Assembly: GCA_017527905.1 (NCBI GenBank)
Contig: JAFXPK010000032.1
Span: 1-64,000, forward strand
Source of the DNA: Paludibacteraceae bacterium
Lineage (GTDB): Bacteria; Bacteroidota; Bacteroidia; Bacteroidales; Paludibacteraceae
Length of the DNA stretch: 64,000 nt
Direction: 5' to 3'
Each line of letters starts with the position of its first letter. Positions within the stretch are counted from its first letter, which is position 1. The position numbers were made by a program, and so were the translations under genes. Positions 16,504 to 43,563 of this stretch are shown here, piece by piece. Under the pieces are notes generated by a model, which saw only the letters and a program-made list of their open reading frames with translations, was not told the DNA's origin and ran no database searches.

Positions 16504-17496
16504 TTAATTCCTGTAATAGCGTGTGTATTTTTTCCTGCTTCTTCCGTAGTTGGCGTAGCATCCTTTCCCTTTCGTGCGGATTTTGAATTCTATGCCCAAT
16601 TCGTGTGTCCCGTAGTTGCCGTGTCTGAGGTTGGAGAAGTTGTAGTCGTAGGAGTAGTAGGCCTGGAAGAACCCGAAGGCGAACCCTGCGAGGAATCCCA
16701 CTTCGTTCGGTATCTTGTAGGTGGCTCCCACGTAGAACAGGTCCGCCGGCATGTTGTCGTATTCTGTGACGTAATAGTAATAGAGCGATAGCTGGTGCTT
16801 CATCACGTCCTTGGAATTGGTCTGCTTGTCTCCGTTGTAGTAGTAGAGGGCGTATGCGGGGCATAGCCTCCACCATTCGGAGGTCTGCATGTTGTAGTTC
16901 ATGAATCCGTAGAATGTCCTGTTCATGGTGACTTCGTCCGTTCCCTTCAGCAGGTGCATGGCGGACGCTCCGAACTCGAAGTTCTGGAGCAGTATCTCGA
17001 ATCCCGCGTCCACATCGGCGGCGTTGCCCTTCTCCAGACATTCGACCACCTTGGCTATGTTCTGGCTTTCGTATCGGCTGTCGTTGACGATTTCGTTCGA
17101 GTTATATCCTTTGTTCATCATACCTGCCGATGCTCCCAGGTTGAGGTAGGAGTCGTCACCGATGGGTATGCAGAAGGAGTAGACGACTTTAGGATTGATC
17201 ATGTGTTGATATCCTATCTTGTCTGTCAAAATGTTTAGTCCTACCTGTGAGTGGGCCCCCAGGAAAAAATATTTTCCCGAGAAGAACAGGTCTTTGGGCA
17301 TTCCGTCCAAATTCGTCCATTGTAGCCTGCCTCCTGCTTGGATGGTGGCATATTGTAGTTCGGGTATATATGCAGGGTTGAAAAAGCTATATTGCAGCTG
17401 CTTGTTCGTGAAGAAGGGCATTTCCTGTGCGGACAAACCCATCATCATGAGCAATGAGGCTATGGTGCATATAATCCGTCTTTTCATGTTCATCAT
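16504..17496 (-). CDS. PorP/SprF-family type IX secretion system membrane protein
   Basis: 330 residues. Signal peptide (IICTIASLLMMMGLSAQ) and a beta-barrel-like body with the family N-terminus (FFTNKQLQYSFFNPAY, then QWTNLDGMPK). PorP/SprF proteins are outer-membrane partners that attach or export T9SS cargo bearing type B sorting domains. The start codon overlaps the stop of the 4,399-residue adhesin upstream (4-nt overlap, 17493-17496). Translation is therefore probably coupled, and this PorP-like protein is almost certainly the dedicated partner of that adhesin, as with SprB-SprF pairs. Confidence 0.9.
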   Translation of the reverse strand: MMNMKRRIICTIASLLMMMGLSAQEMPFFTNKQLQYSFFNPAYIPELQYATIQAGGRLQWTNLDGMPKDLFFSGKYFFLGAHSQVGLNILTDKIGYQHMINPKVVYSFCIPIGDDSYLNLGASAGMMNKGYNSNEIVNDSRYESQNIAKVVECLEKGNAADVDAGFEILLQNFEFGASAMHLLKGTDEVTMNRTFYGFMNYNMQTSEWWRLCPAYALYYYNGDKQTNSKDVMKHQLSLYYYYVTEYDNMPADLFYVGATYKIPNEVGFLAGFAFGFFQAYYSYDYNFSNLRHGNYGTHELGIEFKIRTKGKGCYANYGRSRKKYTRYYRN

Positions 17497-20400
17497 CTTA
17501 CAACTGTTATGTATCCTGTCCGTATTTTCTTTTCTCCTTTCTCGAAGTAGGTGAGCGAGTAGAAGTAGGTATCCTCAGACGCTGGTTCGCCTTTGTAAGT
17601 ACCGTCCCAACCGCTTCCTTGATAGATGAGCGTGCCAACTCTGTCGTAGATCTGGACGTCGTAGTTCTCCATGAAGATGTAGGAGCCGTCGGCGATCATC
17701 GTATTCGGCACGAAGAGGAATGGATCGATCTTTAGGATGGTGCTGGTGCTTTTCCTACATCCGTATTTGTGCTCTACGATCAGTTCTACAGGGATGTCTC
17801 TCCTGCTGTGGATGAGCGTATCGTTGTAGAGGTGGGAGACCTCATTGCTGGTCGAGTCGATCCAAGACTGTCCGTCCCCGAAATTCCAGGTGAACGTGTA
17901 CAACTCGCTTCCTGATGGTGTCGTGGTTTCCTTGAATTCAACCTCCTTCACGTCGTCGCTCAGCGCATACTCGGTGTCGTCGATGGTGCTGTAGGCGATG
18001 ATAGGGTCTTCGAGATATGCCACCTCGAGTATGAAGGACTCTGTCGCCAAGCACCCGTTCTCGTCGATTCCGGATACGTTTATTTGCCTGTTCTTGTCAG
18101 CGATGAAGTGAATGTTCTTTTCTGTCATGGTGGTGTCATCCAAAGTCCATCTGATGTCGGTGAGGGCATCCTCCACGCTGAGGATGACGAGAGAGTCCCT
18201 ACAGCTTGTCTTGTTGCCTGTGATGGTGAGTTCCTTGTAAGGATATGCGTCCACCGTGAATTCAATCGTGTCTTTGCAACCCAGCTCCTTCTCCGTGGCG
18301 ATGAGCATGAAGTCGTTCCTTGCGGTGATAGGCTCGTTGTAGGTTGAACCTGTCTTGACAATTCCTTCGGTGAGGTTCGTCCATTCGTATTCACGGGCGT
18401 TGTCTCCTTGGGCGGTGAAGTTGGCGAGGCTACCGTAGCAGTAGGTGCTTTCTTGCTTCTCAACCTTCAGATTGTCCACTTGGTGCATGTTGATGGTCAA
18501 TGTGTGGTGAGCGGCGCAACCTTCTTCGTTGTGTACCGCTATCTCATATTGGCCGCTCTTGCCAAGGTCTTGGTTGATGTTGCTGTATCGGATATTGTCC
18601 GTGAGGTTCCAAATCGTGTCGATGGCCTCTGTCACGTTGTTCTTACGGACTATGTCGTCGATGGTCACCCTGTTCCTTGCGCAGGTGTCGAAGGTGAGTT
18701 CCCTAGGCTTCACTGCGTTGTGGAAGATGACGTCCACGCTGGTGTCCGCATAGCAGTAGATGTCGTGGAATGTGCTTCTACCCTCTACTTGGAGTGTCCT
18801 GGTCTCCGCTCCGTTCGATGTCAGGGTGATGGATGGAGTCTTTTCCCCGTTGCTCCATTCGTATTGTTCCGCACCGTCGGCTGTCAGTGTGACGGTTTGG
18901 TCGGTGCAGGCGTCTCCACCTCCCGTGATGTTGATGACGATCGGTTGGTTGACGTCGATGACGAGGGACGCCGTGTCGCGGCATACGTTCATGCTATCTA
19001 TGAAGTATGCGAAGTAGGTGTTGCTCTTGGTCACACTTTCGGCGATGAAGCTTTGTCCGTCGATGTTCTGGAACGAAACGCTGTATTTGGCTGTTCCGCC
19101 TCTGTAGCTGCTTTGCGCGAATCGACCGAGGTCGACCGACTCTCCGTAGCAGATAGCGGTGTCTTTGTCTATGGCCTCGATAGCCGGATAGATGGTGATC
19201 ATTGCGGAGTCCGCCTCACTCACACAACCGCTCTCGTCTTGTACTTGACGAATGAGGAAGAGCTTCTGCGTGGCGATGTCCGTTGTGATGGTTGTCACGT
19301 TCGTGTCTTGTCTGGAAGGGTAGCTGGAGAGATCCTCCCACAATAGCCTTACATTGTTGCTGTTGGTGCTTCCCAATAGCTGGTGCTCTCCTGTGTTTTG
19401 GCAGAAGTTCTGGTTGGCAATGCTTGGACGTATTGGTTGCTTGTTGAATTTAAGCGTTGTGACATCCGTTGATTGGCATACGAGTCCGGCATCTTCATAC
19501 TGGTATGTGATGCGGTATTGACCTCCTTGCGTGATGGCGTCCGCTTGAGCGGTCACGTCTGTCGCCGACCCGTTCTGGATGATTTCGTAGGTGGTGACCT
19601 CGATGTTTGGCGTGTATTTACCCGCCTTTGCGGTGTTCTTGCTGAAGAGGGTCAAATCGACGCTGTTCGGCTCACATGTGGTGGTGTCCTTCAACTGAAT
19701 GCGTATTTGTGGAAGCACAGAGACGTCTACTCGGGTCTGACCACTGTGACACTGTGTCTGCAGGTTCATTTGGCTGACGAGGTAGTGGGTGTCTCCCTCC
19801 TCGACGATAGGGGAGACTGCCGTCTCGTTCGTATTGAAGAGTGTGTCTCCCTGCTCGTTGGTCCATACCAGACCAAGCGTCTCGGTGTTCCTTGCCACTG
19901 TGTTGATCACCAATGGCTGGTCTGCACCTGCCGTGTCTTGGCAGAATCGGAAGATAGTGTCTGCCAAGGTGATAGGGTTCTCGTTGACCGTGATGGTGAC
20001 GTCGATGCTGTCTTGGCAGAAGAGCGAGCCGATCTTCTTCTCACCGATTAGGCGGAAGGTCTCTGTCTTGTCTACGTTCTTCGAGTAAGGGAAGGCTGCG
20101 CCAGTCGCATTGTCTCCGTTCTCCCTGAACCAAGTGTAGGTGTCCGCACGGGTGGCGATGAGGTCAGTTACTTCGTCGCCCTCGCAAATGATGGTGTTGC
20201 CCTCTGTCGCTATGGCGAGTGAATCGTATACGATCACTTCCGTGGTATCCATTCTCTCACAGCGGGAGATGGCTTCTGTCGCCTTGGTCACGTACTTTCC
20301 GGATGCGCCGATGATGGTTGGGTCCGCAATGCTGGAGAGGTTGCCTGACTCGTTCACCTTGTAGTAGGTGATGTTCTTCTCTTCAGGGCTGCCGAAGTAG

Positions 20401-23400
20401 GCGGCTTCCGCTTTCTCCTTCAAGTCTACAGTGGTGGCATAGCAAGCTTCCATGAGTCCGATTGGCTGGAAGCCGATGCTTTCCCTCACGTCGAAGTCGA
20501 AGGTGTCAGGTTCACTGAGACATCTTGTCTTCAGATCGATGGCGAACAGGTTGTAGCGTGTCTTGCCATATTGGGTAGTGGAGAGTGTCAACGTGTCGGA
20601 CGTAGTCTCTCCGTTGGCGTTCTTCCATACGAAGGATTGGTTCACGCTGTTGACGCCCGTCTTCTTGGCGGTGAGTTTCACGTCGCCGATGCCTTGGCAA
20701 AGGATCGTGTCGCCGATGAGTTGTGGCACGCCAGGCTGCTTGTGGAACTGGATGGAGATGGTCTTGCTTGCGTCGCAATGCTTGTCATCCGTGTAGTATA
20801 CCTCATACAGACCGCTTTCGCTGATGGCTGTCTCGTTGCTGATGACGGTTCCGTTCAGCTCTGTGCGGACGTAGGTCGGTTGTGTTCCGCCACTGATGCT
20901 CTTGGCGAGGTTCGTGATCAGGTCGTAGGTGAATGGTTGGCAGATCGTGTCCGGATTGTCCAATCCGATGGTGATCTGTGGATTCACGTGAACGGTTACG
21001 TTGCTGCGAGGGCTGACGCATCCCGTGTTCCTGTTGGTGGTCTCCACCTCAAACTTGAAGGCGGTGGACTTTGTCTTCTCCACTTGGATGGTCTCGTCGT
21101 TGGAGAAGAGCGTGGTGTCGTTCTGGTACCATTGGATGCTGTAGCTGCTGATGTCGCTGCTGCTACGTCCTAAGTTGATCTCCTCCGTGCTTGTGGCGCT
21201 GGTGTCTTGGCAGATGGAGATGACGGTGTCTTCGAGCCTTGCAGGGTTCACGTTGACTGTGATCTTCTTGCTGACAGTGTCGGCACATGTGGTTCCGTTC
21301 AATTTCTCTATTAGGATGAAGGTGGTATCCTGCATGATCTCCTTGTAGGTGAAGGAAGCCGTGGTGTTGAGCGTCTTCTCGTCTCCTTCTATCTTCCATG
21401 CGTAGGAAACCGGACGTTCGTCTCCGACTGCCTCCAATTTCACGTCGTTGCCTTCACAGAGGACGTCAGCCCCTTCGATGGTGAAGGTCGGCAATTGGTG
21501 GAAGATGAGCTTCAATGAGTTTTCTGCGGTACACTTCGATTGGTCATCCTCTATCGTGAATTGATAGAGGGAAGTGTCTTGTCTCGATTTTGTCACCTTG
21601 CTCAACTCGTTCTCTCCGACCACATAACCATTCTCGGTAGCGTTGAAGATCAATGTGGTGTGCGGAGTTTGGTTGATTGCGAAGGAGGCCATCGCCTGCT
21701 CGTAGAGGTTGATCTCTTCGCCTGCGCACAACTCCATCGTTCCGTCATTGCCCAATGGAGTAACCTTGATGGCTTCTTTCACAATGACGATGATGGTGTC
21801 GTCTTCACTGACACAGCCCGTCAATACGTTCTTGCTGAAAGCGGTGTATTGGGAGGTCGGTGGAGTGCTTGGTATCTCTATCGTGTCTCCGTAGAGGGTG
21901 GACTTGTGGTCGCCCCAGAAGATGGAGGTGGTCCGCTTGTCGTTGCTATGGGCTGCGGTGAGATGCAATTGCCCGTTGCTTTGGCAGAAGTAGATGGTAT
22001 CCAACCCGTTCTCGATGATAGGGGTGGATGGCTTCTGGTTGATGGTGACATAGACTGAATCGGAAGCGGAGCATACACCATCCACAACGGTGTAGGTATA
22101 TAGCATGCTATCGATGTTCTCGGTGTACTCTATTTGACTAGCCTCCGCATCGGTGATGGCGGATGATGTGCCGTTGATGACCTTCCCGTAGGTGATGTCG
22201 CAACTACCGATGTTGGTGATGTTGGTGGTGGTCGATGCGGTGAGGTAATCCGTCACCTTGCTCTTGAAGTCGATGACTTCAGGTTGGCAGACTGCCGGAA
22301 GATCCTCCATGTCCAGCTTGATGGCCTTGTTGACCACGAATGGCACGACGGTATCCTTGTAACAACCTGTGATTTTGTTGTACTGACGGATGGTGTACTT
22401 GATGGTACGTGACTTGCCTGCCACACTTGTCGTGTCTGTGTTGATTGGGTTAGCGATGGAGTCACCCTTCTCGTCGAACCATTGGATGGCGAGTTCAGCC
22501 AACGGGTTAGTGGCGGTCTCGTTCCTGGTCACAGGGATCAGGTGTGTGCCGGAAAGTTGGCAGAAGGTGTCGCTGAGCACGGTGGCTGCGACAGGGATCT
22601 CACGCACGTCCATGGAGACCATGAGGGAGTCGTAGCAAGTGAGTCCGACGGCAGGGAAGGCCTCCGTTGCCTTGAGGTAAATGGATTCGCTCTGCTCCGA
22701 GTTGAATCGGGTAGGGTCGTTGATGAGCCTGCCGTCCGTCTCCCTGAACCACTCGTATTGGTAGCCCCTGTTCGGTGTTGGAAGAGCGGTATCTTGGAAT
22801 TGACATACGGTGATCGGATCGATTGGATCGATGACCGGCAATCCATGGAATACGATGGTGGCGGTATCGGTGAGGCCACAACCGCTGACATAATCCTTGA
22901 TTTGGATGAGGTAGCGGGTCGTGTCGGTCTCGTTCTTCGCCTTTGTGGAGGCTATCTTCTCAGAGACAGCTTGGCTGGACGGTGTGACACCGTTCAGTCT
23001 GAAGATGCTGAAGCGGATGTCGCGTACGCTGTTCTTCGTGTTCTTGTCCACTTGCTCCTGAACCATTTGGATCAGGTCGATGGAGTCACGGAAGCAGAGG
23101 TCTTGTGTGCCGACTGCCGTGTACTCGATAGGGAAGGAGATGACCGCATGGATCGTGTCGACGTCGCTGACGCAACCCGTCTTCTCGTTCTTGGTGAAGG
23201 CCATGTAGTTGCCATAGTTAGCGGATATCTCCAACTCATCGCCCGTGACGGTGGAGGTGTACTCGCCCCAATAGACTTGGGTCGGGTACTTCGATTCGTT
23301 CTTGTTCTCCGCGTGGAGGATGATTGGAGCATCGTCCTGGCAGAAATAGATGGTATCCTTGCCGCCTTCGATGATAGGCTTGAGCGGTTTCTTGTTGATG

Positions 23401-26400
23401 GTGACGAATACGGAGTCGGAAGCGGAGCATACTCCGTCGACTACGGTATAGGTGTAGAGCACGCTGTCCTTGTCGTTGGTGTACTCTATTTGGCTAGCCT
23501 CCGCATCGCTGATGACGGTTTGCGCACCGTTGATGATTTTTCCGTAAGTGATGTCGCAGTTGCCGATGTTGGAGAGGTTGGTGGTCGTCGATGCGGTGAG
23601 GTAATCCATCACCTTGCTTTTGAAGTCGATGACTTCAGGTTGGCAGACAGCGGCGAGGTCTTCCATTTCCAATCGAAGAGCTTTGTTGACCACGAATGGA
23701 ACGGTGGTATCCTTGTAACATCCAGTTACCTTGTTGTACTGACGGATGGTGTACTTGATGGTGCGTGACTTAGCGTTCACGATCATCGTGTCCGTATTGA
23801 TTGGGTTGGCGATGGAGTCACCCTTCTCGTCGAACCATTGGATGGAGAGGTCGGCCATTGGATTGGCCGCCGTCTCGTTGCGTGTCACAGGGATCAGGTG
23901 AGTGCCGGAGAATTGGCAGAAGGTGTCGCTGAGCACGGTGGCTGCGACAGGGATCTCACGCACGTCCATGGAGACCATGAGGGAGTCGTAGCAAGCGAGT
24001 CCGACGGCAGGGAAGGTCTCCGTTGCCTTGAGGTAAATGGATTCGCTCTGCTCCGAGTTGAATCGGGTAGGGTCGTTGATGATCCTGCCGTCCGTCTCCC
24101 TGAACCACTCGTATTGGTAGCCTCTGTTCGGCGTCGGAAGAGCGGTGTCTTGGAATTGACATACGGTGATCGGATCGATCGGGTCGATGACCGGCAATCC
24201 ATGGAATACGATGGTGGCCGTGTCTTGGAATTCACAACCGCTGACGTAATCCTTGATTTGGATGAGGTAGCGGGTCGTGTCGGTCTCGTTCTTCGCCTTT
24301 GTGGAGGCTATCTTTTCTGAGATCGCTTGGCTGGACGGTGTGACACCGTTCAGTCTGAAGATGTTGAAGCGGATGTCGCGTACACTGTTCTTCGTGTTCT
24401 TGTCCACTTGCTCCTGAACCATTTGGATCAGGTCGATGGAGTCACGGAAGCAGAGGTCTTGCGTTCCGATTGCAGAGAATTCGATAGGAACGGAGATGAC
24501 CGCATGGATCGTGTCGACGTCGCTGACGCAACCTGTCTTCTCGTTCTTGGTGAAGGCCATGTAGTTGCCGTAGTTGGCAGAGATCTCCAACTCGTTGCCA
24601 GTGACGGTGGAGGTGTACTCGCCCCAATAGATTTGGGTCTGGTACTTCGATTCGTTCTTGTTCTCCGCGTGGAGGATGATTGGAGCATCGTCCTGGCAGA
24701 AGTAGATGGTATCCTTGCCGCCTTCGATGATAGGCTTGAGCGGTTTCTTGTTGATGGTGACGAAGACGGAGTCGGAAGCGGAGCATACGTTGTCCGCATC
24801 CGTCACGGTGTAGGCGTAGAGCACGCTGTCCTTGTCGTTGATGTATGCCAACTGGTTCGCCTCGGCCTCGCTGAGGAGGGTAGCCGATCCGTTGAGGACT
24901 CTGCTATATTGGTATTGGAGTCCTGCAGTGTTGGTGAAGTGGGTTGAACCGATGTTGTTCGAGATGTAATCTTTCACTGCCTGGGAGAGGGAGATGGTCT
25001 CCGGCTCGCAGACGGCTGACAGGTCAGGCATGTTCAGCACAGGAGTTTGCTTGAGGGTCACGTAGATGGACGTATCCTTGAAGCAAGAGGTGCTGGTGTT
25101 GGTTTGTCTCACCGTATATTTCAGTCTCTTGGTGAGGTCATTCATAACAATCGCATCGGTCACGATAGGGTTGTTAATGGAATCACCTTCAGGGGAGAAC
25201 CACTGCAGCTTCAGGTTCGTTGCCGTGTTGTATGCGTCGTTGGACGGTTGTACGGCGACGTTGATCTTCTTGTCAGGGTTGTTCTGGCAGAAAGACGTGT
25301 CGTTTACAAGCGCATTGTCCGGAGTAGGGTAGACGGTCACGTCCACGTCGAAGGTGTCCGCACAACCGTATAGTTTATCTTTCTCAGCCAATCGGATGGT
25401 CTCATCCGTGGAGAGGGACAAGCGTGTCGGGTTCCCTGTTATCGCTGTGCCATCGGACCTCAACCATTGGTAAATATAGGTTGGGTCGGTCGGTGTAGGC
25501 AGTTCCGCCTCCACGTTTTGGCAGGCGTACAAGTCATTGTCGACATATGCGTTCGGCAATCCGTGGAAGATGACCGTGGCCGTGTCTATGCGGGAACATC
25601 CGCTGATGGTGTCCAAAATGTCGATGAGGTAGCGGGTGGTGTCGTCCTCTGTTCTTGTCTTGGAAGAACGCACCTCGCTGGTGATCTCTATACCTCTTGA
25701 GTTGTTGTTAAGCAGGAACACTTTGAATCCTAGCGCCTTCTCCAGGATGATGTCGTTGACACTGCTCAATAGTCTTTGAACGGTGTCTCGGAGGGAAATC
25801 TCTTCGCCGAAGCAGAATTCCTTTGTGCCGAATCCGTTGTATTTGATGGTGTTCTCCACCCGGATGTTGATCTCCACCTTGTCGCTGACGCAGGCTGTTA
25901 CCGTGTCTTTCTGGTAGATGGCGTACTTGGCGCTTCTGTTTTGGGAGGTGATGATGGATTCTTCAGGCTCCCAAACGACGGTGGTGTTTTGGTCTAAATT
26001 GTTGATTTTGGAGTCTATCTTTTCCGCCAGACTGACAGTGTCTCCGATGGCGCATAGATAGATGGTGTCCTTGCTGAATAGCGGAGTGTGCGGCTTCGGG
26101 TTGACGATAGCGTTCGCGCCCACCAATTCTCCGTAGCATCCTGTTGTCTTATCCTTGTATTGCGCGAAGTATAGGCTATTGTTCATCGTTTGGAGGTATC
26201 TGCCCGCTGTGGTGTCCACAATCATATCTGTGGTCGCGACCTCCGTGGTGTCCGCTTTGTATGTGTATAGCGTGTATTTCGGATCGATGGAGATGTTGAA
26301 CTTCTGGGCCATGTCCCCTTCGCACATGACGATGGTGTCTATCTCCGGTTTGTCTTTCACGTTGTCGTGGATGTACACGCTGACGGTCAGCCAAGGACCT

Positions 26401-29400
26401 TTACAACCCATGGTGGTTGCTTGGCGCATGCAGTAGAATAACGTGTCCGGTTGATCGAAGTCTATGTCGATATATTTCTCTTTGCGGTTGGCGAAATATT
26501 TTTCGGTGGTGTCGCAGTCGTCTTGTAAGTTATCCTTTCTGTACCATTCCATGATGTAGTCTCTGGACGGATAACCGACGGTTGGAAGTCTCTTACTGCT
26601 GTAAGGGTTTCCTCCGACACAATAGTTCAACGCGATCTGTGTTTCGCTGAGGTTGATGGAGGTTGTCGTGTCACCGATCATGGCGTAGCTGGTGATGGCG
26701 TCGGCCACAACGATCTTGAAGGTGTCCGGCTCGCTCACACAACTGTTGCTGTCGATTCGTACGACCACGAACATATTGTCGTTTGCGGCGGAAGTGTTCG
26801 TCATAGGATCACCTCCGTCGGTGACAATGTCGTAGGCGGTGCTTTTGTATTTGTTGATAGGCAAATTGCTTGTCGCATAGTCGATGTGAGACCATACCCA
26901 TTTATATCCGTTAGGACCGAATGCGCCTTGCTCGTCGAGGTATGCGTTGAAATCGTTGAGTGGCGTATCTCCGGTACAGTAGCGAACCGAATCCACTCCG
27001 CCGGCGAACTGAGGCTTGGTCTTGTCGTAGCAGTTCACTTTGATGGTCATGATGCTTCCTGCGCCCAAACAACCTTTTGCGGTCTTCCCTTGAACCACGA
27101 AGTTGAGGAGTCTGTAGCCGTCCGTTCCGCAAGGTGAGTCGGTGTCCAGCATGTCGAGCAGCCTATCCAATGAAATGGAGTCTTTCTCTATCGCATGCCT
27201 TATTTTTCCGTCCGCATCGCTTGGGAATGTCTCGTCGTAGGAGTAGAACAGCAAGTTGCTTATGTCGTAACCTGTGCTGTTGAGTGCCTGCAAGGCATCT
27301 ATCACGTCGTCTGTGGTTGGGCGGTAGTATTGGCAGATGACGATGGTGTCCGTCTTCAGCGTGTCCGCTGCCGGGTTGACGGTGATCTCGATGGTGGACG
27401 GGTTGCTTTCGCAATGGTCTTTGTAGAAGGTCACATCGTAGCGGAAGGAAGTTGTCTGCTTGTTCTCGACGGAGTCTTTCGGCACGTAGATGGTGTCACC
27501 CACGCCGATCTTTGTCCGGGTGAGGTTGTCTGCCGCATCTTTCGTCACGTTGTACCAATACACGTCATAGTCTATTTGTTGAGGCGTCTTGGTGACGAAC
27601 AGTTTGATGGAGTCCTCCGGATTCAGCGATTGACAGAAGGTGTTCTCCGGATTTTTGGTTAGGTCAGGCAACTGGTCTATTTTCAAGTCCAGCACTTTGA
27701 TGAAGAACTCGAACGGGGTGCCGTTGCAACTTTGCGCCAAGTCTTTTTGCCAGAGGCTGACTTCCCTCAATCCAGGTTTGTCCGTGTCGAGGAAACCGGC
27801 TTTGTGAATGTTCCATATCGCCACCTCGTTGAATGTTTGGTCGACAAGTCCGTTGAAGGTTATGTTCTGCGCTTCCGCAGTGTCGTTGACTTCCGCATAG
27901 ACGTTGTAATCCCTGAACGACTTGTGTATTTCCAGATTGTCCGGCTCGTTCCCCAAACAGAGATATATGGTGTCTTTTTGTTGGATCGTATCTCCGTTAT
28001 AGACGATGATAGGATCTTCCAGGTCGTGCTTGACGAACTTGATAGGGATGAAGTCGCTACAAGTTTTTTTGTTGATTTCCCATGGGGATTTGTAGTATAT
28101 CTGGAGTATCATGCTTTGGTCGATCGTATACTCCTCCGATTCCAGTGTCTCGTCAAGCAAAGAGATGTATTGGCTCTTCTCGTAATAATTTGCGGGAGAG
28201 GTGTCTTTATCTTTGAATAGGACGAGCACGTCGCTGAACTCCCTCTTCATGTTGATGATGGAGTCGATGGAGTCGGCCTGTAGTTCAGCCTCGCAGTCAA
28301 GGAAGGCTTGGAAGTCTTGGTTCATCGCTCCGGTCGAGGAGATGGACGGCAATCCGCCATCCAAGGTGCTGAGCAATTGTTCCAGCCTAGATTTGTTTAC
28401 ACCATTTTTCGCGGCGAAATCGATCAATTTGTTCCGCTTCGATTGTTCCCAGATGCAAGAGTCGTTTTTTCTGATGGAATCTATCTCGAAGTCCATCTTC
28501 GCCAATTGCTTCCTGATCATGGCTGGTGTCAGTTTAATTGGGTCGCAGAAGTGGATGATGATGGAGTCGGGCATTTCTGTGCAACTGCCCGTGGCATCGA
28601 CGTTGATTTCCACTTGCTTGGTGCGGTTTTTCTGGAAGACGCCGTTTTGTGTCTTAGAGTATCCGTTGAGGCCTTTACATCCGCCGCCGCCTCCTCCTCC
28701 GCCGCTGCCGCTTCCGCCGTTGCCTTCACATTTCAGTTTGTCCCAGTCAATGTCATGTTCATAGGAGCTCTCGATGACGGAGGTGTCTTTGGAGGCAGGG
28801 TCGCTAACGTTCATTTCCGCCTGTGGCACAACCCTAGGCGACTCTCCCACGTAGAGTGTTTTGTTGTAGACAGGGTCATCGTCTTTCTTCGTGCGAAGGG
28901 TGAGAGATATGGTGATGGCATCGGTGTCTTGGATGGCGTTTGGAATGATGAGGGTAGGGAAAGAGAATATCAGTTCCCTTGTTTTCACAAGCGTTGGTTT
29001 GTTTGTGGCGTAGTTATCGTTTTCCTTGTCTATCGACTCTAAATAGGCGTTTAGACTGGTGAGATATTTTTTTCGGAAATTCCCGCTTTTGGTTTCGTTC
29101 CACCCATACACCTTGTCGTCAGCAGTGTACTCGGTTTTATCGGTTCCGTTCACTGTGGTTATGGTCGGTTTGGTGTAGGCTCCGTTGTTGTTCGTTCCGT
29201 TATTGGTGACATCAGTCAACGTGGAGTGGAAGGAGATGTCGAAGCTGGTGATGGAGTCCACGTACTCGGAGATAGGGACTCTCACCTCGATATTGGTCAG
29301 ACCATTCTTGTTGTTCCCTGTTTTCACGTAAAGTCTGCAGGTGAAGGTTGAGTCTGGTTCAATGTCCGTTTTGTCCACTTCTATAGGCAATGCCACTTCA

Positions 29401-30692
29401 GGTGCGTCTGGCGCACCGATGTAAAGCAACGAGTTCGTGAAGAAGTGGTACTCCGTTGTTGGTGTGATGACGATGTTGAAGCTGCTGTCGCCTTGATTTA
29501 TGTAGGTGTAGTTCCCTGGATCAAGGGTGGTTTTCTGCAAATCGTAGCCTCTGACTTGGCTGATGAACGAGTGTATGTTGCATCCGAGTTTTCCCTCGTA
29601 TTGGTAATTAATCAATCCTCTGAAGTGCGCTTCGTCCTGACTCGCCGCATTTGGATCGGCGCAGTCTTCAATCTTGTAAGGTATTTTCGTTTTGGCGAAA
29701 CCGTAGTAGTTCTTCGTGTCTGAAGAATTGCCATTCAGTTTGCCATCCTTGTTGGATACTATTTTCTCTTGGCTTTGGGTGGACATACCTCCGAAAGCCG
29801 CATATGCGAAGGATATGGTGTCGCTTATTCTGTAGGCATTCGCAGAACCGAAACTGAGGTTCGTGTATATTGGTCTTGGTGTTGTACCTGTCTGTTGGGA
29901 TTCTCCGAATTGGTCACCTTCGTATACCATGATGCTTCGTTTTTGCAACAATGGATGTTCGTAAACCAGGGTGAAGTTCCATCCGCTGAAGAGACCTGCG
30001 TTTTCTCCCGCTTGCGTGTTCGCTAGTTTAGCGTCCACATTGGCGACATAGATGCGGTAATCACCTCCACCGTAAGGGGTAACGTCCGAGACGAGGGCTG
30101 TGATGATATCTTTTATGTCTGCGTGGCACACGTAAAATCCGTCGTTCGCGCCATTTTCGGATGATGTTATGACTTTAGCGGTTGCACTTACTTCGATGAA
30201 ATCTCTGAGGGCGACGTTGTTTGTGGTTAAGGATTGCCCTTGACTATTAGTGATTTTGATGTAAACCTTTGATGGAGTGGCATCTTGAGTGTTGTATCGA
30301 CCACCCCAAGTGAGTCTTGCGCAATCCACATTGAGTTTTCCACATGTGCCAGGCGCTTCGATGCAAAATTCGGCATAGTTGGAATTCTTTATCGTGAACG
30401 AAGCCGATGTCGTCGATGAGACGCTGCTATAGTATTGGGCAGCTCCCCCTGGCGTTTTCAGGATGTATTTGAGGTTCGTTTTTCCTTTTTCGACATCCTC
30501 GTCAATGGTCGCACCTGCCGCCAAATCAATTTGGGTGTTGGTGTTACCCACCATGAAACAGTTTCCGTTGATGGTCCCCGAGTATATAGGGGTAATGCTG
30601 TCGCTGGCTACGCTTTGCGCATAACCATTCCCTATGGACAATATTAGTACCCCTACTATAACTGATAATATTTTTAATCCCTTTGTTTTCAT
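17493..30692 (-). CDS. Giant T9SS-secreted repeat adhesin with type B C-terminal domain (SprB-like)
   Basis: 4,399 residues. Signal peptide at 1-25 (LSVIVGVLILSIGNGYAQ). An N-terminal globular region of about 650 residues ends in a poly-glycine linker near 655-668. About 3,600 residues of beta-sandwich (Ig-like) modules follow, each typically with one FCQ or LCF cysteine and one GC cysteine and many TDTxxY stretches. These are arranged in super-repeats of about 450 residues, two of which are nearly identical (1,356-bp period, about 22015-24727). A PKD-like domain (FTWNFGDGQSW) sits near 4270, followed by a type B gliding-motility-associated sorting domain at about 4325-4399 (VPNTMI, VQIYDRVGTLIYQGSGWDGTYKG). 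Probably a cell-surface filament for adhesion or motility. It is coupled to the PorP/SprF-like gene. Confidence 0.92.
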   Translation of the reverse strand: MKTKGLKILSVIVGVLILSIGNGYAQSVASDSITPIYSGTINGNCFMVGNTNTQIDLAAGATIDEDVEKGKTNLKYILKTPGGAAQYYSSVSSTTSASFTIKNSNYAEFCIEAPGTCGKLNVDCARLTWGGRYNTQDATPSKVYIKITNSQGQSLTTNNVALRDFIEVSATAKVITSSENGANDGFYVCHADIKDIITALVSDVTPYGGGDYRIYVANVDAKLANTQAGENAGLFSGWNFTLVYEHPLLQKRSIMVYEGDQFGESQQTGTTPRPIYTNLSFGSANAYRISDTISFAYAAFGGMSTQSQEKIVSNKDGKLNGNSSDTKNYYGFAKTKIPYKIEDCADPNAASQDEAHFRGLINYQYEGKLGCNIHSFISQVRGYDLQKTTLDPGNYTYINQGDSSFNIVITPTTEYHFFTNSLLYIGAPDAPEVALPIEVDKTDIEPDSTFTCRLYVKTGNNKNGLTNIEVRVPISEYVDSITSFDISFHSTLTDVTNNGTNNNGAYTKPTITTVNGTDKTEYTADDKVYGWNETKSGNFRKKYLTSLNAYLESIDKENDNYATNKPTLVKTRELIFSFPTLIIPNAIQDTDAITISLTLRTKKDDDPVYNKTLYVGESPRVVPQAEMNVSDPASKDTSVIESSYEHDIDWDKLKCEGNGGSGSGGGGGGGGCKGLNGYSKTQNGVFQKNRTKQVEINVDATGSCTEMPDSIIIHFCDPIKLTPAMIRKQLAKMDFEIDSIRKNDSCIWEQSKRNKLIDFAAKNGVNKSRLEQLLSTLDGGLPSISSTGAMNQDFQAFLDCEAELQADSIDSIINMKREFSDVLVLFKDKDTSPANYYEKSQYISLLDETLESEEYTIDQSMILQIYYKSPWEINKKTCSDFIPIKFVKHDLEDPIIVYNGDTIQQKDTIYLCLGNEPDNLEIHKSFRDYNVYAEVNDTAEAQNITFNGLVDQTFNEVAIWNIHKAGFLDTDKPGLREVSLWQKDLAQSCNGTPFEFFIKVLDLKIDQLPDLTKNPENTFCQSLNPEDSIKLFVTKTPQQIDYDVYWYNVTKDAADNLTRTKIGVGDTIYVPKDSVENKQTTSFRYDVTFYKDHCESNPSTIEITVNPAADTLKTDTIVICQYYRPTTDDVIDALQALNSTGYDISNLLFYSYDETFPSDADGKIRHAIEKDSISLDRLLDMLDTDSPCGTDGYRLLNFVVQGKTAKGCLGAGSIMTIKVNCYDKTKPQFAGGVDSVRYCTGDTPLNDFNAYLDEQGAFGPNGYKWVWSHIDYATSNLPINKYKSTAYDIVTDGGDPMTNTSAANDNMFVVVRIDSNSCVSEPDTFKIVVADAITSYAMIGDTTTSINLSETQIALNYCVGGNPYSSKRLPTVGYPSRDYIMEWYRKDNLQDDCDTTEKYFANRKEKYIDIDFDQPDTLFYCMRQATTMGCKGPWLTVSVYIHDNVKDKPEIDTIVMCEGDMAQKFNISIDPKYTLYTYKADTTEVATTDMIVDTTAGRYLQTMNNSLYFAQYKDKTTGCYGELVGANAIVNPKPHTPLFSKDTIYLCAIGDTVSLAEKIDSKINNLDQNTTVVWEPEESIITSQNRSAKYAIYQKDTVTACVSDKVEINIRVENTIKYNGFGTKEFCFGEEISLRDTVQRLLSSVNDIILEKALGFKVFLLNNNSRGIEITSEVRSSKTRTEDDTTRYLIDILDTISGCSRIDTATVIFHGLPNAYVDNDLYACQNVEAELPTPTDPTYIYQWLRSDGTAITGNPTRLSLSTDETIRLAEKDKLYGCADTFDVDVTVYPTPDNALVNDTSFCQNNPDKKINVAVQPSNDAYNTATNLKLQWFSPEGDSINNPIVTDAIVMNDLTKRLKYTVRQTNTSTSCFKDTSIYVTLKQTPVLNMPDLSAVCEPETISLSQAVKDYISNNIGSTHFTNTAGLQYQYSRVLNGSATLLSEAEANQLAYINDKDSVLYAYTVTDADNVCSASDSVFVTINKKPLKPIIEGGKDTIYFCQDDAPIILHAENKNESKYQTQIYWGEYTSTVTGNELEISANYGNYMAFTKNEKTGCVSDVDTIHAVISVPIEFSAIGTQDLCFRDSIDLIQMVQEQVDKNTKNSVRDIRFNIFRLNGVTPSSQAISEKIASTKAKNETDTTRYLIQIKDYVSGCEFQDTATIVFHGLPVIDPIDPITVCQFQDTALPTPNRGYQYEWFRETDGRIINDPTRFNSEQSESIYLKATETFPAVGLACYDSLMVSMDVREIPVAATVLSDTFCQFSGTHLIPVTRNETAANPMADLSIQWFDEKGDSIANPINTDTMIVNAKSRTIKYTIRQYNKVTGCYKDTTVPFVVNKALRLEMEDLAAVCQPEVIDFKSKVMDYLTASTTTNLSNIGNCDITYGKIINGAQTVISDAEASQIEYTNDKDSVLYTYTVVDGVCSASDSVFVTINKKPLKPIIEGGKDTIYFCQDDAPIILHAENKNESKYPTQVYWGEYTSTVTGDELEISANYGNYMAFTKNEKTGCVSDVDTIHAVISFPIEYTAVGTQDLCFRDSIDLIQMVQEQVDKNTKNSVRDIRFSIFRLNGVTPSSQAVSEKIASTKAKNETDTTRYLIQIKDYVSGCGLTDTATIVFHGLPVIDPIDPITVCQFQDTALPTPNRGYQYEWFRETDGRLINDPTRFNSEQSESIYLKATEAFPAVGLTCYDSLMVSMDVREIPVAATVLSDTFCQLSGTHLIPVTRNETATNPLAELAIQWFDEKGDSIANPINTDTTSVAGKSRTIKYTIRQYNKITGCYKDTVVPFVVNKAIKLDMEDLPAVCQPEVIDFKSKVTDYLTASTTTNITNIGSCDITYGKVINGTSSAITDAEASQIEYTENIDSMLYTYTVVDGVCSASDSVYVTINQKPSTPIIENGLDTIYFCQSNGQLHLTAAHSNDKRTTSIFWGDHKSTLYGDTIEIPSTPPTSQYTAFSKNVLTGCVSEDDTIIVIVKEAIKVTPLGNDGTMELCAGEEINLYEQAMASFAINQTPHTTLIFNATENGYVVGENELSKVTKSRQDTSLYQFTIEDDQSKCTAENSLKLIFHQLPTFTIEGADVLCEGNDVKLEAVGDERPVSYAWKIEGDEKTLNTTASFTYKEIMQDTTFILIEKLNGTTCADTVSKKITVNVNPARLEDTVISICQDTSATSTEEINLGRSSSDISSYSIQWYQNDTTLFSNDETIQVEKTKSTAFKFEVETTNRNTGCVSPRSNVTVHVNPQITIGLDNPDTICQPFTYDLITNLAKSISGGTQPTYVRTELNGTVISNETAISESGLYEVYYTDDKHCDASKTISIQFHKQPGVPQLIGDTILCQGIGDVKLTAKKTGVNSVNQSFVWKNANGETTSDTLTLSTTQYGKTRYNLFAIDLKTRCLSEPDTFDFDVRESIGFQPIGLMEACYATTVDLKEKAEAAYFGSPEEKNITYYKVNESGNLSSIADPTIIGASGKYVTKATEAISRCERMDTTEVIVYDSLAIATEGNTIICEGDEVTDLIATRADTYTWFRENGDNATGAAFPYSKNVDKTETFRLIGEKKIGSLFCQDSIDVTITVNENPITLADTIFRFCQDTAGADQPLVINTVARNTETLGLVWTNEQGDTLFNTNETAVSPIVEEGDTHYLVSQMNLQTQCHSGQTRVDVSVLPQIRIQLKDTTTCEPNSVDLTLFSKNTAKAGKYTPNIEVTTYEIIQNGSATDVTAQADAITQGGQYRITYQYEDAGLVCQSTDVTTLKFNKQPIRPSIANQNFCQNTGEHQLLGSTNSNNVRLLWEDLSSYPSRQDTNVTTITTDIATQKLFLIRQVQDESGCVSEADSAMITIYPAIEAIDKDTAICYGESVDLGRFAQSSYRGGTAKYSVSFQNIDGQSFIAESVTKSNTYFAYFIDSMNVCRDTASLVIDVNQPIVINITGGGDACTDQTVTLTADGAEQYEWSNGEKTPSITLTSNGAETRTLQVEGRSTFHDIYCYADTSVDVIFHNAVKPRELTFDTCARNRVTIDDIVRKNNVTEAIDTIWNLTDNIRYSNINQDLGKSGQYEIAVHNEEGCAAHHTLTINMHQVDNLKVEKQESTYCYGSLANFTAQGDNAREYEWTNLTEGIVKTGSTYNEPITARNDFMLIATEKELGCKDTIEFTVDAYPYKELTITGNKTSCRDSLVILSVEDALTDIRWTLDDTTMTEKNIHFIADKNRQINVSGIDENGCLATESFILEVAYLEDPIIAYSTIDDTEYALSDDVKEVEFKETTTPSGSELYTFTWNFGDGQSWIDSTSNEVSHLYNDTLIHSRRDIPVELIVEHKYGCRKSTSTILKIDPFLFVPNTMIADGSYIFMENYDVQIYDRVGTLIYQGSGWDGTYKGEPASEDTYFYSLTYFEKGEKKIRTGYITVVR
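22015..24727 (-). repeat. Tandem 1,356-bp in-frame duplication inside the giant adhesin gene
   Basis: Identical anchors recur at exactly 1,356-bp spacing: 22381 and 23737; 23371 and 24727; and, less perfectly, 22015 and 23371. The period is 452 codons, so the frame is kept. Long stretches, for example about 22500-22900 against 23860-24260, differ at only a few bases, so the copy is recent or kept alike by gene conversion. More divergent copies flank both sides. Confidence 0.88.
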
Positions 30693-35089: not shown

Positions 35090-36538
35090 TTATATCTTTT
35101 CCAGCACATCAATCAGGTGTTTCCAGAACTTCTCGACGGTCGGTATTTCGCAACGCTCTGCGGGCGAGTGGTTGCCGATGATGGTAGGGCCGATGGAGAT
35201 CATGTCCATGTCCGGATACTTCTCGATGATGAGTCCGCATTCCAGGCCTGCGTGGATGGCGCCCACCACAGGTTTCTCCCCGAAGAGTTTCTCGTAGGAG
35301 CCCGCCACGATGTTCTTTAGTTCGGAGTTCATGTTCGGCTTCCATCCCGGGTATCCGTCACTATGTTTCACGCTTGCCCCTGCCAATGAGAAGACGGCCT
35401 CCACACGGTCTTTGATGTCGTGTTTCTTGCTGTTAGTCGAGCTTCGCTGGCTGGTGGCCACGACGATTTTACCCTCTTTCTCCTTGATGGATGCGAGGTT
35501 GGTGGAGGTCTCCGGCAACCCTTCTATCTCTGTGCTCATCTCGATCACGCCATGCGGACAAGCGTAGAGCGCGCTGATGAGTCTGTTGGCTCCTTCCTGC
35601 TCGTATACCGATACCTCTGCGTCGGCCGATTCGAGGTCGATGACTAGCTCCTTTTCCGTCGGGTATTCGTTTTCAATCGTGTGGATGTAGTGGTTCAGGT
35701 CCACACGGATCTCCTCCTTCTTGTCCCATCCGATGCAGAGGGTGGCGTGCGCTTCCCTTGGGATAGCGTTGTGGAGGTTACCCCCTTCGATACGACTGAG
35801 GTGGATCGGGAATTTCTTCGATTCGTTCCAGAGGAATCTGGACAATATCTTGATAGCGTTGCCTCTTCCTTTGTTGATGTCGTCTCCGGAGTGTCCTCCT
35901 TGTAGGCCTTTGACGAATATGTGGAGGAAGAATGCGCCTTGAGGGGCGGTTACTTTTTTCAGGTCGAATGTGGCGACGGTGTCGATACCTCCCGCGCAGC
36001 CGATGCAGAATCGTCCGTCCTCCTCAGAGTCCAGGTTGATGAGTCTCCTCGATTGGAGCCAACCCGCCTTGACGTGTTGCGCACCGGTCAGTCCACGCTC
36101 CTCATCCACCGTGATGAGGCATTCGAGCGGACCGTGTTGGATCGTGTCGGACTCCAGTACCGCTAGGATGGCGGCCACACCGATTCCGTCGTCCGCCCCG
36201 AGTGTAGTGCCTTGCGCCTTCAGCCAATCCCCCTCCACGATGGTGCGGATAGGGTCGTTGTCGAAGTCATGCTCCGTGCCTGCGTTCTTCTCGCAGACCA
36301 TGTCCATGTGCGCCTGTAGGAGTACGGAAGGCGCAGACTCTCTTCCCTTCGTGGCCTTCTTGCGGATGAGCACGTTGCCTACTTCATCCATTTCGGCTTC
36401 CAAACTATGCTTTCGCGCGAATTCCATAAGGAAAGCACCTATTTTTCCCTCTTTACCGGAAGGGTGGGGTATGTCGCATATATCCTTGAATCTTGCCCAT
36501 AGTTCTTGGGGCTTCAAATCATTTATCGTCTTCATCAT
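35090..36538 (-). CDS. pepD: Xaa-His dipeptidase (aminoacyl-histidine dipeptidase, M20C family)
   Basis: 482 residues, the usual PepD length. The di-zinc ligands of M20 peptidases can be seen: QAHMDMVCEK near 78, GTTLGADDGIGVA near 115, the general-base pair in TVDEERGLTGA near 145, and the late histidine in AIHAGLECG near 455. It cleaves dipeptides such as carnosine or Xaa-His in the cytoplasm. The start is the first ATG of an ATG-ATG pair. A near-consensus -7 element (TATCTTTA on the minus strand, 36558-36565) lies about 20 bp upstream. It is first in the likely pepD-pspC-uvrB-dnaJ-like operon. Confidence 0.95.
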   Translation of the reverse strand: MMKTINDLKPQELWARFKDICDIPHPSGKEGKIGAFLMEFARKHSLEAEMDEVGNVLIRKKATKGRESAPSVLLQAHMDMVCEKNAGTEHDFDNDPIRTIVEGDWLKAQGTTLGADDGIGVAAILAVLESDTIQHGPLECLITVDEERGLTGAQHVKAGWLQSRRLINLDSEEDGRFCIGCAGGIDTVATFDLKKVTAPQGAFFLHIFVKGLQGGHSGDDINKGRGNAIKILSRFLWNESKKFPIHLSRIEGGNLHNAIPREAHATLCIGWDKKEEIRVDLNHYIHTIENEYPTEKELVIDLESADAEVSVYEQEGANRLISALYACPHGVIEMSTEIEGLPETSTNLASIKEKEGKIVVATSQRSSTNSKKHDIKDRVEAVFSLAGASVKHSDGYPGWKPNMNSELKNIVAGSYEKLFGEKPVVGAIHAGLECGLIIEKYPDMDMISIGPTIIGNHSPAERCEIPTVEKFWKHLIDVLEKI

Positions 36539-36602
36539 TTTATATTTTTTTGCTTTGTAAAGATACGTTTTTATGGCGATGTTGCCAATAGATTATCCGT
36601 AT

Positions 36603-36638
36603 AAAAAAAGTAAGCTTGAGACTAACACTAGCCCCAAG
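36603..36638 (-). terminator. Intrinsic terminator of the candidate sigma-54 small RNA
   Basis: A perfectly closed 10-bp stem with two G-U pairs and a 4-nt loop (36615-36638), then CTTAC and seven Ts. One of the strongest terminator signatures in the window. Confidence 0.85.
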
Positions 36639-36740
36639 CCCCACTACACTGATACTTTAAACAACCTATATAGACACAGGGGCTTTCGCCAACTGTGGCA
36701 AATTCTTTTATTCAAGAGAGTCCCAAATTGTTCCTCTATA
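36603..36740 (-). ncRNA. Candidate small RNA driven by a sigma-54-type promoter
   Basis: A transcription unit of about 138 nt with no ORF. It starts 12 nt after the -12 GC of a sigma-54-like promoter and ends at a strong intrinsic terminator. The RNA would fold a hairpin at 36675-36697: CACAG/CTGTG around an internal loop, GGC/GCC and a GAAA tetraloop. The terminator hairpin has 10 bp (CTTGGGGCTA / TAGTCTCAAG, loop GTGT, 36615-36638) with T7 at 36603-36609. The terminator separates it from pepD downstream. I know no described RNA family with this sequence. Confidence 0.65.
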
Positions 36741-36751
36741 TCTAAGTAAGG

Positions 36752-36766
36752 GCAAAAATCGTGCCA
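36752..36766 (-). promoter_or_regulatory. Sigma-54-type promoter (TGGCACG-N4-TTGC)
   Basis: The minus strand reads TGGCACG, four bases, TTGC. That is the -24/-12 consensus of RpoN promoters with exact GG-to-GC spacing. No TAnnTTTG element lies at the matching place. If used, transcription would begin near 36740 and depend on an enhancer-binding activator. Confidence 0.7.
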
Positions 36767-36986
36767 TTGTCTCACTTTTGGGGCGTAAAAATTTCAATTA
36801 CCCAATTTATCTTGACTATATCGTAGAATGTTGCTGTTGTATTGATGTGTTTTTTTACCTAAAAATGGGCGATTCCACACTTTTTCCCTTGGAGATGGCC
36901 CTGCGATTTAGTGTGCGGGAGGTGATGCTGAATGGATTGGACGCACCTTTATTCCCTCGGAAGGGTCTCTTTTCCTTTCTTTTTTG

Positions 36987-37020: not shown

Positions 37021-39132
37021 ATGCCCGATTTTTTGGAGAAAGAGATAACCTATTTGCCTGGGGTGGGACCTAAGAAGGCGGATGTGCTGAAGAAGGAATT
37101 GAATGTTTCCTCCTATGGCGACTTGTTGTATTGTTTCCCCTATCGGTACATCGACCGTAGTAAATTCTATCGGATACGTGATGTCTCTCCGGCCTCCATG
37201 TATGTTCAGATACGTGGCATTATTCTGAAGGTGAACACGCAGGGAGAGGGACGCAAGCAACGGGTCGTGATACTTTTCTCTGACGGGGAGTCGACCATTG
37301 AGTTGTTGTTCTTCAAGGGGGTGAAGTATATTCTTGAGAAGTATAAGCCTGGACATGAATACGTTGTCTTCGGTAAGGTCTCCGAGTTTAATGGACAATA
37401 TAATCTAGTTCATCCTGACATGGAGACCATCAATGAGGCGATGTCCAAGCAGGCGCTGGGAGGTGTGCAGGGAATGTACAACACTTCCGAAAAGATGAAG
37501 AACGCCTTCCTGACCTCCCGTGTATTGCAGAAGTACATCTCCGAGATCTTCAATTCGATGGGGGAGGCTCGCATCCCCGAGTCGTTGCCTTCCTATCTTG
37601 TGGAGCAACATCACATGATGTCCCGGCATGATGCGTTGAAGAATGTCCATTTCCCGCAGACCCCCGATGCGTTGCGTTTGGCTCAGTTTCGTCTGAAATT
37701 TGAGGAACTGTTTGTCATCCAGTTGAATATGCTCCGCCAACGGAACTATCGGAGGCTTCGCTTTGTGGGTTTTAAGTTTACGAAGATCGGTGACACTTTC
37801 AATTCATTCTATAAGCATAATCTTCCGTTCGAGCTTACCAATGCGCAGAAGAAGGTGATCAAGGAGATTTACGGAGACCTTTCCAGCGGCAAGCAGATGA
37901 ACCGTCTTCTGCAGGGGGATGTCGGCAGTGGAAAGACCATGGTGGCGCTGATGTCCATGTTGATGGCTTTGGACAATGGCTTCCAAGCCTCGATGATGGC
38001 TCCGACGGAGATCTTGGCGCAGCAGCATTTCGCCTCCATTTCGCAGATGTTGAATGGGATGGATGTGCGTGTGGCGTTGCTGACCGGTTCGTCGAAGAAG
38101 AAGGAGCGGGAAGCTATTCTGCAGGGAGTGCGGGATGGTTCCGTGCAGATTTTGATAGGAACCCATGCCTTGCTGGAGGATGATGTGGTCTTTTCACGTT
38201 TAGGTTTGGTGGTCATTGATGAGCAACACCGCTTTGGTGTCGCCCAGCGCGCCAAGTTGTGGAGCAAAAGCGACCAGCCGCCTCATGTGTTGGTGATGAC
38301 CGCGACCCCTATACCCCGCACGTTGGCGATGACGCTTTACGGCGACTTGGATGTCTCCGTCATAGATGAGTTGCCTCCCGGACGTAAGCCGGTGCAGACG
38401 ATTCACCGTCTGGACAATGCTCGAGGCATGTTGTATGATTTCATCAAGAAGCAGATCGCCTTGGGAAGACAGGCATATATCGTCTATCCGATGATACAGG
38501 AGTCCGAGCGCTCCGACTATGCGAACATTGAGGCTGGCTACGAGTCCCTTCAGCAGATATTCCCTGAACCACAGTACCATTTGGGCATGGTGCACGGGAA
38601 GATGAAGCCGGAGGAGAAGGATGCGCAGATGAGGCAGTTCGCGGCGGGTGAGTTGAACATTCTCGTGGCCACCACCGTGATCGAGGTGGGCGTCAATGTG
38701 CCCAACGCCTCCGTCATGCTGATCGAGAGCGCTGAGCGTTTCGGTTTGTCCCAGCTCCATCAGTTGCGGGGCAGGGTAGGACGAGGCGCCGACCAATCGT
38801 ATTGCATGTTGGTCACTTCCCCGAAATTATCCAGTGAAGGAAGACAGCGCATGGAGGTGATGACCCGCACGAACAATGGGTTCGAGATTTCTGAGGTCGA
38901 TTTGAAGATGCGCGGTCCGGGAGACTTGGAGGGAACGCAGCAGAGCGGTGTCGCCATCAGTCTCAAGATAGCCAATTTGGCGACGGATGGTCAGATCATA
39001 CAGTTCGCCCGTGAGGTGGCGGAGAAGGTGCTGGATGAGGATCCGGACCTGCTGAAGGAGAAGAACATCCTATTGAACCAGCGTCTTGACCGTATGGCGC
39101 GGGAGACTAAGAATTGGGGCGTTATTTCATGA
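37021..39132 (+). CDS. recG: ATP-dependent DNA helicase RecG
   Basis: 703 residues. RecG remodels stalled replication forks and Holliday junctions. The N-terminal wedge/OB region starts FLEKEITYLPGVGPKKADVLKKEL. Helicase motifs: Walker A LLQGDVGSGKTMVAL near 300, DEQH box IDEQHRFGVAQR near 400, motif III VMTATPIPRT near 425, motif VI QLRGRVGRGADQSYC near 580, and the TRG region following. Full length and intact. The next gene starts 16 nt after the stop. Confidence 0.98.
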   Translation: MPDFLEKEITYLPGVGPKKADVLKKELNVSSYGDLLYCFPYRYIDRSKFYRIRDVSPASMYVQIRGIILKVNTQGEGRKQRVVILFSDGESTIELLFFKGVKYILEKYKPGHEYVVFGKVSEFNGQYNLVHPDMETINEAMSKQALGGVQGMYNTSEKMKNAFLTSRVLQKYISEIFNSMGEARIPESLPSYLVEQHHMMSRHDALKNVHFPQTPDALRLAQFRLKFEELFVIQLNMLRQRNYRRLRFVGFKFTKIGDTFNSFYKHNLPFELTNAQKKVIKEIYGDLSSGKQMNRLLQGDVGSGKTMVALMSMLMALDNGFQASMMAPTEILAQQHFASISQMLNGMDVRVALLTGSSKKKEREAILQGVRDGSVQILIGTHALLEDDVVFSRLGLVVIDEQHRFGVAQRAKLWSKSDQPPHVLVMTATPIPRTLAMTLYGDLDVSVIDELPPGRKPVQTIHRLDNARGMLYDFIKKQIALGRQAYIVYPMIQESERSDYANIEAGYESLQQIFPEPQYHLGMVHGKMKPEEKDAQMRQFAAGELNILVATTVIEVGVNVPNASVMLIESAERFGLSQLHQLRGRVGRGADQSYCMLVTSPKLSSEGRQRMEVMTRTNNGFEISEVDLKMRGPGDLEGTQQSGVAISLKIANLATDGQIIQFAREVAEKVLDEDPDLLKEKNILLNQRLDRMARETKNWGVIS

Positions 39133-43198: not shown

Positions 43199-43369
43199 GG
43201 TGTGATGTGCGTGGGGGTTGTTCCTTGCGCTTGGATGATACCGCTGTGGAAGACCCTATCTCCTTTTGTATTTATATTTATACGTTTTTGTGGGTGTTTC
43301 TTCTTAATGATTGATTCATAGTTATTTGTGTGCTTTTCCCTCCCTTGGTGCCCTGGCGGCTGGACATGG

Positions 43370-43563
43370 AAAAAGCCGCACCGAAATTAATTAAACTCCT
43401 TAAGATAGGAATTCGGCGTGTTCCATTCTTTGTAATCCACCGTGTCACGAAGACAACCCGAAGGTGTGGCCCGCCATTGAGATGGAAGTTTACGCCTGTT
43501 GTTTGTTGTAATTGTTAAGTTTAACCATAATATACGGTGCGGCGTTCCTTAATCTTTATTTTC
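43370..43563 (-). ncRNA. ssrS: 6S-like RNA (candidate ssrS)
   Basis: About 194 nt on the minus strand with the architecture of 6S RNA, which binds housekeeping RNA polymerase. A 9-bp perfect closing stem (GCCGCACCG/CGGTGCGGC) is followed by a large asymmetric central bubble whose 3' side carries a small hairpin (TTCCT-ATCTTA-AGGAG). A long apical rod follows, with GGCGT/ACGCC, TTCCAT/ATGGAA, CC..ACC/GGTGG and TGTC/GACA nested in order. It ends in five Ts right after the closing stem and is preceded by a consensus promoter. I identify it by structure and size, not by a family match. The 62-codon plus-strand frame across it is not credible. Confidence 0.65.

Follow-up and report, generated by a model that had tools for sequence, protein, structure and literature searches.

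A probable, conserved small RNA gene with a sigma-54-type promoter between recG and pepD in an uncultured rumen Paludibacteraceae bacterium

The DNA analyzed here, referred to as the window, is a stretch of 64,000 nucleotides from contig C53 of an uncultured rumen bacterium with a genome of 3.27 Mb in 53 contigs. Judging from its sequence and conservation, the minus strand between the divergent genes recG (37021-39132, plus strand) and pepD (35090-36538, minus strand) very probably carries a free-standing, sigma-54-dependent gene for a small RNA (sRNA) of about 138 nt, the conserved core of which would act in trans, either by base pairing or by binding a partner.

An earlier note on this DNA had described a sigma-54 promoter, a GAAA-tetraloop hairpin and a strong terminator, in that order on the minus strand and without an ORF. 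All three elements are present. The promoter, TGGCACGATTTTTGC (TGGCACG-ATTT-TTGC; 36752..36766, minus), matches the consensus, with GG at -24 and GC at -12 at fixed spacing (TGGCAC-N5-TTGC), and counting 12 bases past the -12 C to reach +1 gives a predicted RNA of ~138 nt at 36603..36740 (minus). Hairpin 1 (CACAG-TTGGC-GAAA-GCCC-CTGTG, with an inner GGC/GCC; 36675..36697, minus) is followed by a 23-base core, ATAGGTTGTTTAAARTATCAGTG / ATAGGTTGTTTAAAGTATCAGTG (36647..36669, minus), which is unpaired in the consensus structure and is presumed to be the pairing or binding region. The intrinsic terminator (36603..36645, minus) consists of a hairpin at 36641-36612, with an extended lower stem, and a run of seven T residues at 36609-36603; its stem of 13 pairs is the longest within the 3.5 kb scanned. 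The predicted RNA folds better than shuffled sequences (z = -2.2), and the short frames within the unit show no conservation across relatives. In an Rfam search of the sRNA, no family, riboswitches included, scored above its curated cut-off.

The earlier proposal of a stand-alone unit is borne out by the surrounding genes, since recG is oriented away from it and pepD is equipped with a separate, conserved promoter past the terminator. This sigma-ABfr-type promoter (TTGGCA...TATCTTTAC; 36560..36588, minus) lies 3' of the sRNA terminator, and 22 of its 32 columns are kept in an alignment of eight distinct loci. With no minus-strand gene upstream reading into the region, the terminator on that strand can only belong to a transcript initiated within the divergent intergenic stretch. 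Elsewhere in the window, a 4399-codon ORF (17493-30692, minus) probably encodes a giant secreted surface protein: it has a signal peptide and repeated domains, and its C terminus is of the gliding-motility type.

The near relatives of the host are genomes assembled from metagenomes, labelled "Paludibacteraceae bacterium" or UBA1181 and for the most part of rumen or gut origin. The sRNA DNA is present in nine of the 16 genomes of the genus, at the recG-pepD junction in nine species, and the promoter and hairpins are retained there, as had been anticipated for close relatives. Among the seven genus members without the sRNA, pepD has different neighbours in six and was not found in the seventh. 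A covariance model, suggested in the earlier note, was built from seven sequences and searched against 358 genomes of the family. It gave 89-127 bits in the same nine genomes and three weak matches elsewhere (25-32 bits), and no credible match in the 358 genomes fell outside the genus. The weak matches (L148-L150) were dropped, as they are located at the terminators of other genes.

Conservation within the unit is sharply position-specific. In the eight-locus alignment, 12 of 15 promoter columns are kept, followed by 44 bases in which none is kept, while 22 of the 23 core columns are invariant. When the window is compared with the two most distant species, identity is 87% in the promoter, 20-25% in the next 44 bases and 96% in the core. 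The most conserved part is the core, which lies between the two hairpins and is absent from the earlier note. Both stems carry compensatory changes (in hairpin 1, A-U to G-C, and inner G-C/G-U), but the covariation evidence is modest because there are just seven distinct sequences. The GAAA loop described in the earlier note is not conserved, being AAUA, UGAG or GAA in relatives. A search of viral contigs for the core did not find it.

Several observations favour sigma-54 as the factor that would drive this promoter. Nine species have the site in the same position, although two of them lack the -12 C (TTTGA in L012, TTTGT in L017). The genome encodes a single rpoN gene. It also has three clear activators of sigma-54: L096 carries a receiver domain, L097 sits next to an lptE-like gene, and L098 is NtrC-like. 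A scan for other RpoN sites, also suggested earlier, depended on the pattern used: the strict -24/-12 pattern had five matches in the genome against three in the reversed control, which is not clearly above chance, whereas a spacer-specific form with a T-rich spacer (TGGCAYRNWTTTTG) had nine against none, and 114 against nine over the 16 genus genomes. Upstream of the sRNA promoter, seven of the nine species have a recognisable block (TATAGTCAAGATAAATTGGGTAA; 36798..36820, minus) that is a possible activator site. The other sigma-54 promoters do not share it: when the upstream regions of the nine sigma-54 sites were compared, no 8-base word was common to three or more.

Sigma-54-type sites were also fetched from the related genomes and grouped by what follows them. 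Conserved sites precede htpG (six genomes), a thioredoxin-like gene (five genomes) and genes for exported proteins. In Flavobacterium psychrophilum, the measured sigma-54 regulon, served by three activators, comprises GroESL, DnaK, GrpE, HtpG and ClpB, together with a thioredoxin-family protein, exported proteins and Rfp36, a putative regulatory RNA (PMC9723704), and a comparative study found HSP90 sites enriched in Bacteroidia (PMC12316311). The earlier note had offered nitrogen or stress as the controlling signal. Nitrogen found no support, and the sites before htpG, thioredoxin and exported-protein genes, in agreement with the F. psychrophilum regulon, make protein or envelope stress the better guess. 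The best reading of these sites is that the sRNA would belong to a protein-quality or envelope stress regulon.

Messenger RNA targets were sought by pattern searches, which are limited in reach. In the 16 genomes, TTTAAACAACCT gave no conserved complementary target, and within the closest seven its sole occurrence is in the RNA gene. Duplexes predicted with RNAduplex between the core and eight sigma-54 leaders were no better than shuffles. When the 18-mer CTGATACTTTAAACAACC was searched with three mismatches allowed, the only conserved match lay antisense to a tRNA-His gene. This corresponds to a same-sense resemblance between the core and the D-arm region of that gene, at 15 of 18 bases (L202, G000:C13:80301-80318), which is not a target and probably reflects chance. 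An apparent pairing site, CAAACAACC, near exported-gene promoters was also rejected, as it is located upstream of the inferred start sites of those genes.

Other explanations can be envisaged for the same data. Given that the strict motif alone occurs in the genome at close to chance frequency, the RNA might be transcribed from a housekeeping or other promoter and the -24/-12 match be coincidental. Against this, the site shows position-specific conservation across nine species although the sequence on either side has diverged, and we regard this alternative as improbable. Improbable to a similar degree is a sigma-54-driven pepD leader with a regulated terminator, that is, an attenuator or riboswitch rather than a separate RNA. 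The unit is on the same strand as pepD, with its terminator ~65 bases ahead of the start codon, and hairpin 1 of the window contains AAGCCCC, which could base-pair with the terminator's GGGGCTT. However, this pairing is broken in two relatives (L012 and L018), the Rfam search returned no riboswitch, and pepD would be served by its own promoter after the terminator. There is even less to recommend an mRNA for a very small protein, a very remote prospect in our judgement. Frames of 23-33 codons with TTG or ATG starts do end in YRLFKVSV, within the core, in several close species, but the starts vary, L012 has an in-frame stop, the frame is shifted by 1-2 bases with loss of the stop codon in L014 and L015, and conservation of the core is spread over all codon positions.

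A less distant alternative accepts a real sigma-54-driven RNA and differs from the best explanation solely in the last step: the RNA would be a decoy that binds a protein or another RNA through UAUCAGU, instead of pairing with mRNA. This motif, part of the core, recurs in three groups of leaders belonging to sigma-54-associated exported-protein genes, with ~0.02 occurrences expected per 400 nt, and may mark a common partner; the failure of the searches for complementary targets points the same way. However, UAUCAGU is only seven bases long and was singled out post hoc, the groups of leaders may be related to one another, and some of them lack the motif; we consider the decoy unlikely, if deserving of attention. 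The exported-protein genes concerned (L130, L133, L134 and relatives) have the sigma-54-type promoter 350-430 bases upstream, many of their leaders carry UAUCAGU, and a second, housekeeping-type promoter apparently lies between the sigma-54-type promoter and the gene.

Under the preferred reading, a free-standing trans-acting sRNA, sigma-54 RNA polymerase opened by one of the three activators would begin transcription near 36740 and end it at the T-run at 36603. The RNA would have a variable 5' segment, a short hairpin, the unpaired 23-base core and the terminator hairpin. Its core would most likely act in trans, with messenger RNAs as pairing partners or, alternatively, by binding a shared partner. 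We infer a base-pairing sRNA from this shape, with its conserved unpaired core between two hairpins and its variable 5' end. The sigma-54 response, with its htpG, thioredoxin and exported-protein genes, would thereby gain a post-transcriptional output.

Other conserved stretches follow sigma-54-type promoters in the genus. In one group (L138 at G000:C53:88019, minus; L237, L248, L261, L271, L274), the promoter is followed by ~105 nt up to a terminator, near-identical in six species from just past the promoter and with unrelated flanks; this is probably a second sigma-54 small RNA. In another (L243, L251, L259, L269, L273, L287, L290), ~100 nt with a terminator are near-identical in seven species, probably a third such RNA, although no member of this group turned up among the sigma-54-type sites in the genome that contains the window. 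The only Rfam RNA at the loci L138 and L243 was a nearby tRNA. These two groups strengthen the case that sigma-54 drives small RNAs in the genus. A further group (L136 at G000:C51:58891; L235, L252, L264, L279) has a conserved ~175 nt up to a CCGCG terminator and no clear gene, and in yet another (L132 at G000:C42:133876; L238, L249, L257, L266, L282) the promoter precedes a 36-codon basic ORF (MKGNEKKPKKVEKKAKHIAAYLAAEESASHIDAKKK), the DNA from promoter through ORF being almost invariant in six species. Quite tentatively, several unrelated, strongly conserved sRNAs (the present one, the L138 and L243 groups and perhaps L136) might form a Qrr-like, multi-RNA arm of the sigma-54 stress regulon that tunes surface-protein mRNAs, perhaps via UAUCAGU.

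Most of what is known of sRNA control in the Bacteroidota comes from Bacteroides, in which the RNAs described so far are under housekeeping-type promoters. Two maps of Bacteroides thetaiotaomicron report the housekeeping motif and PM2 only, with RpoN unmentioned (PMC7366714, PMC10994844). A conserved sigma-54 RNA, together with its probable sister RNAs, would connect an activator-dependent stress regulon with post-transcriptional regulation in bacteria of the gut and rumen, and the sRNA unit is a compact, testable system.

Sigma-54-dependent small RNAs are already a known kind in Proteobacteria; the sequence family described here is the part without an Rfam match. Qrr of Vibrio, CrcZ and NrsZ of Pseudomonas and GlmY of enterobacteria are likewise stand-alone, with sigma-54 promoters and intrinsic terminators, but they belong to another phylum, with other activators and signals, and no sequence relation to them was seen. 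The window also holds a Bacteroidales-1 / 6S-like RNA (RF01693) at 43368-43544 (minus, 80 bits). It too is a conserved Bacteroidales sRNA but a separate gene, the model of which the present RNA does not match. The earlier view that no such RNA had been described holds for Bacteroidales in the literature searched, but not for the phylum: Rfp36 of F. psychrophilum, likewise a putative regulatory RNA, is listed with a promoter of the sigma-54 (SM4) type and shares its regulon with HtpG, thioredoxin and exported proteins (PMC9723704), although it comes from another class of the Bacteroidota and is likened to the present RNA by description, not by sequence.
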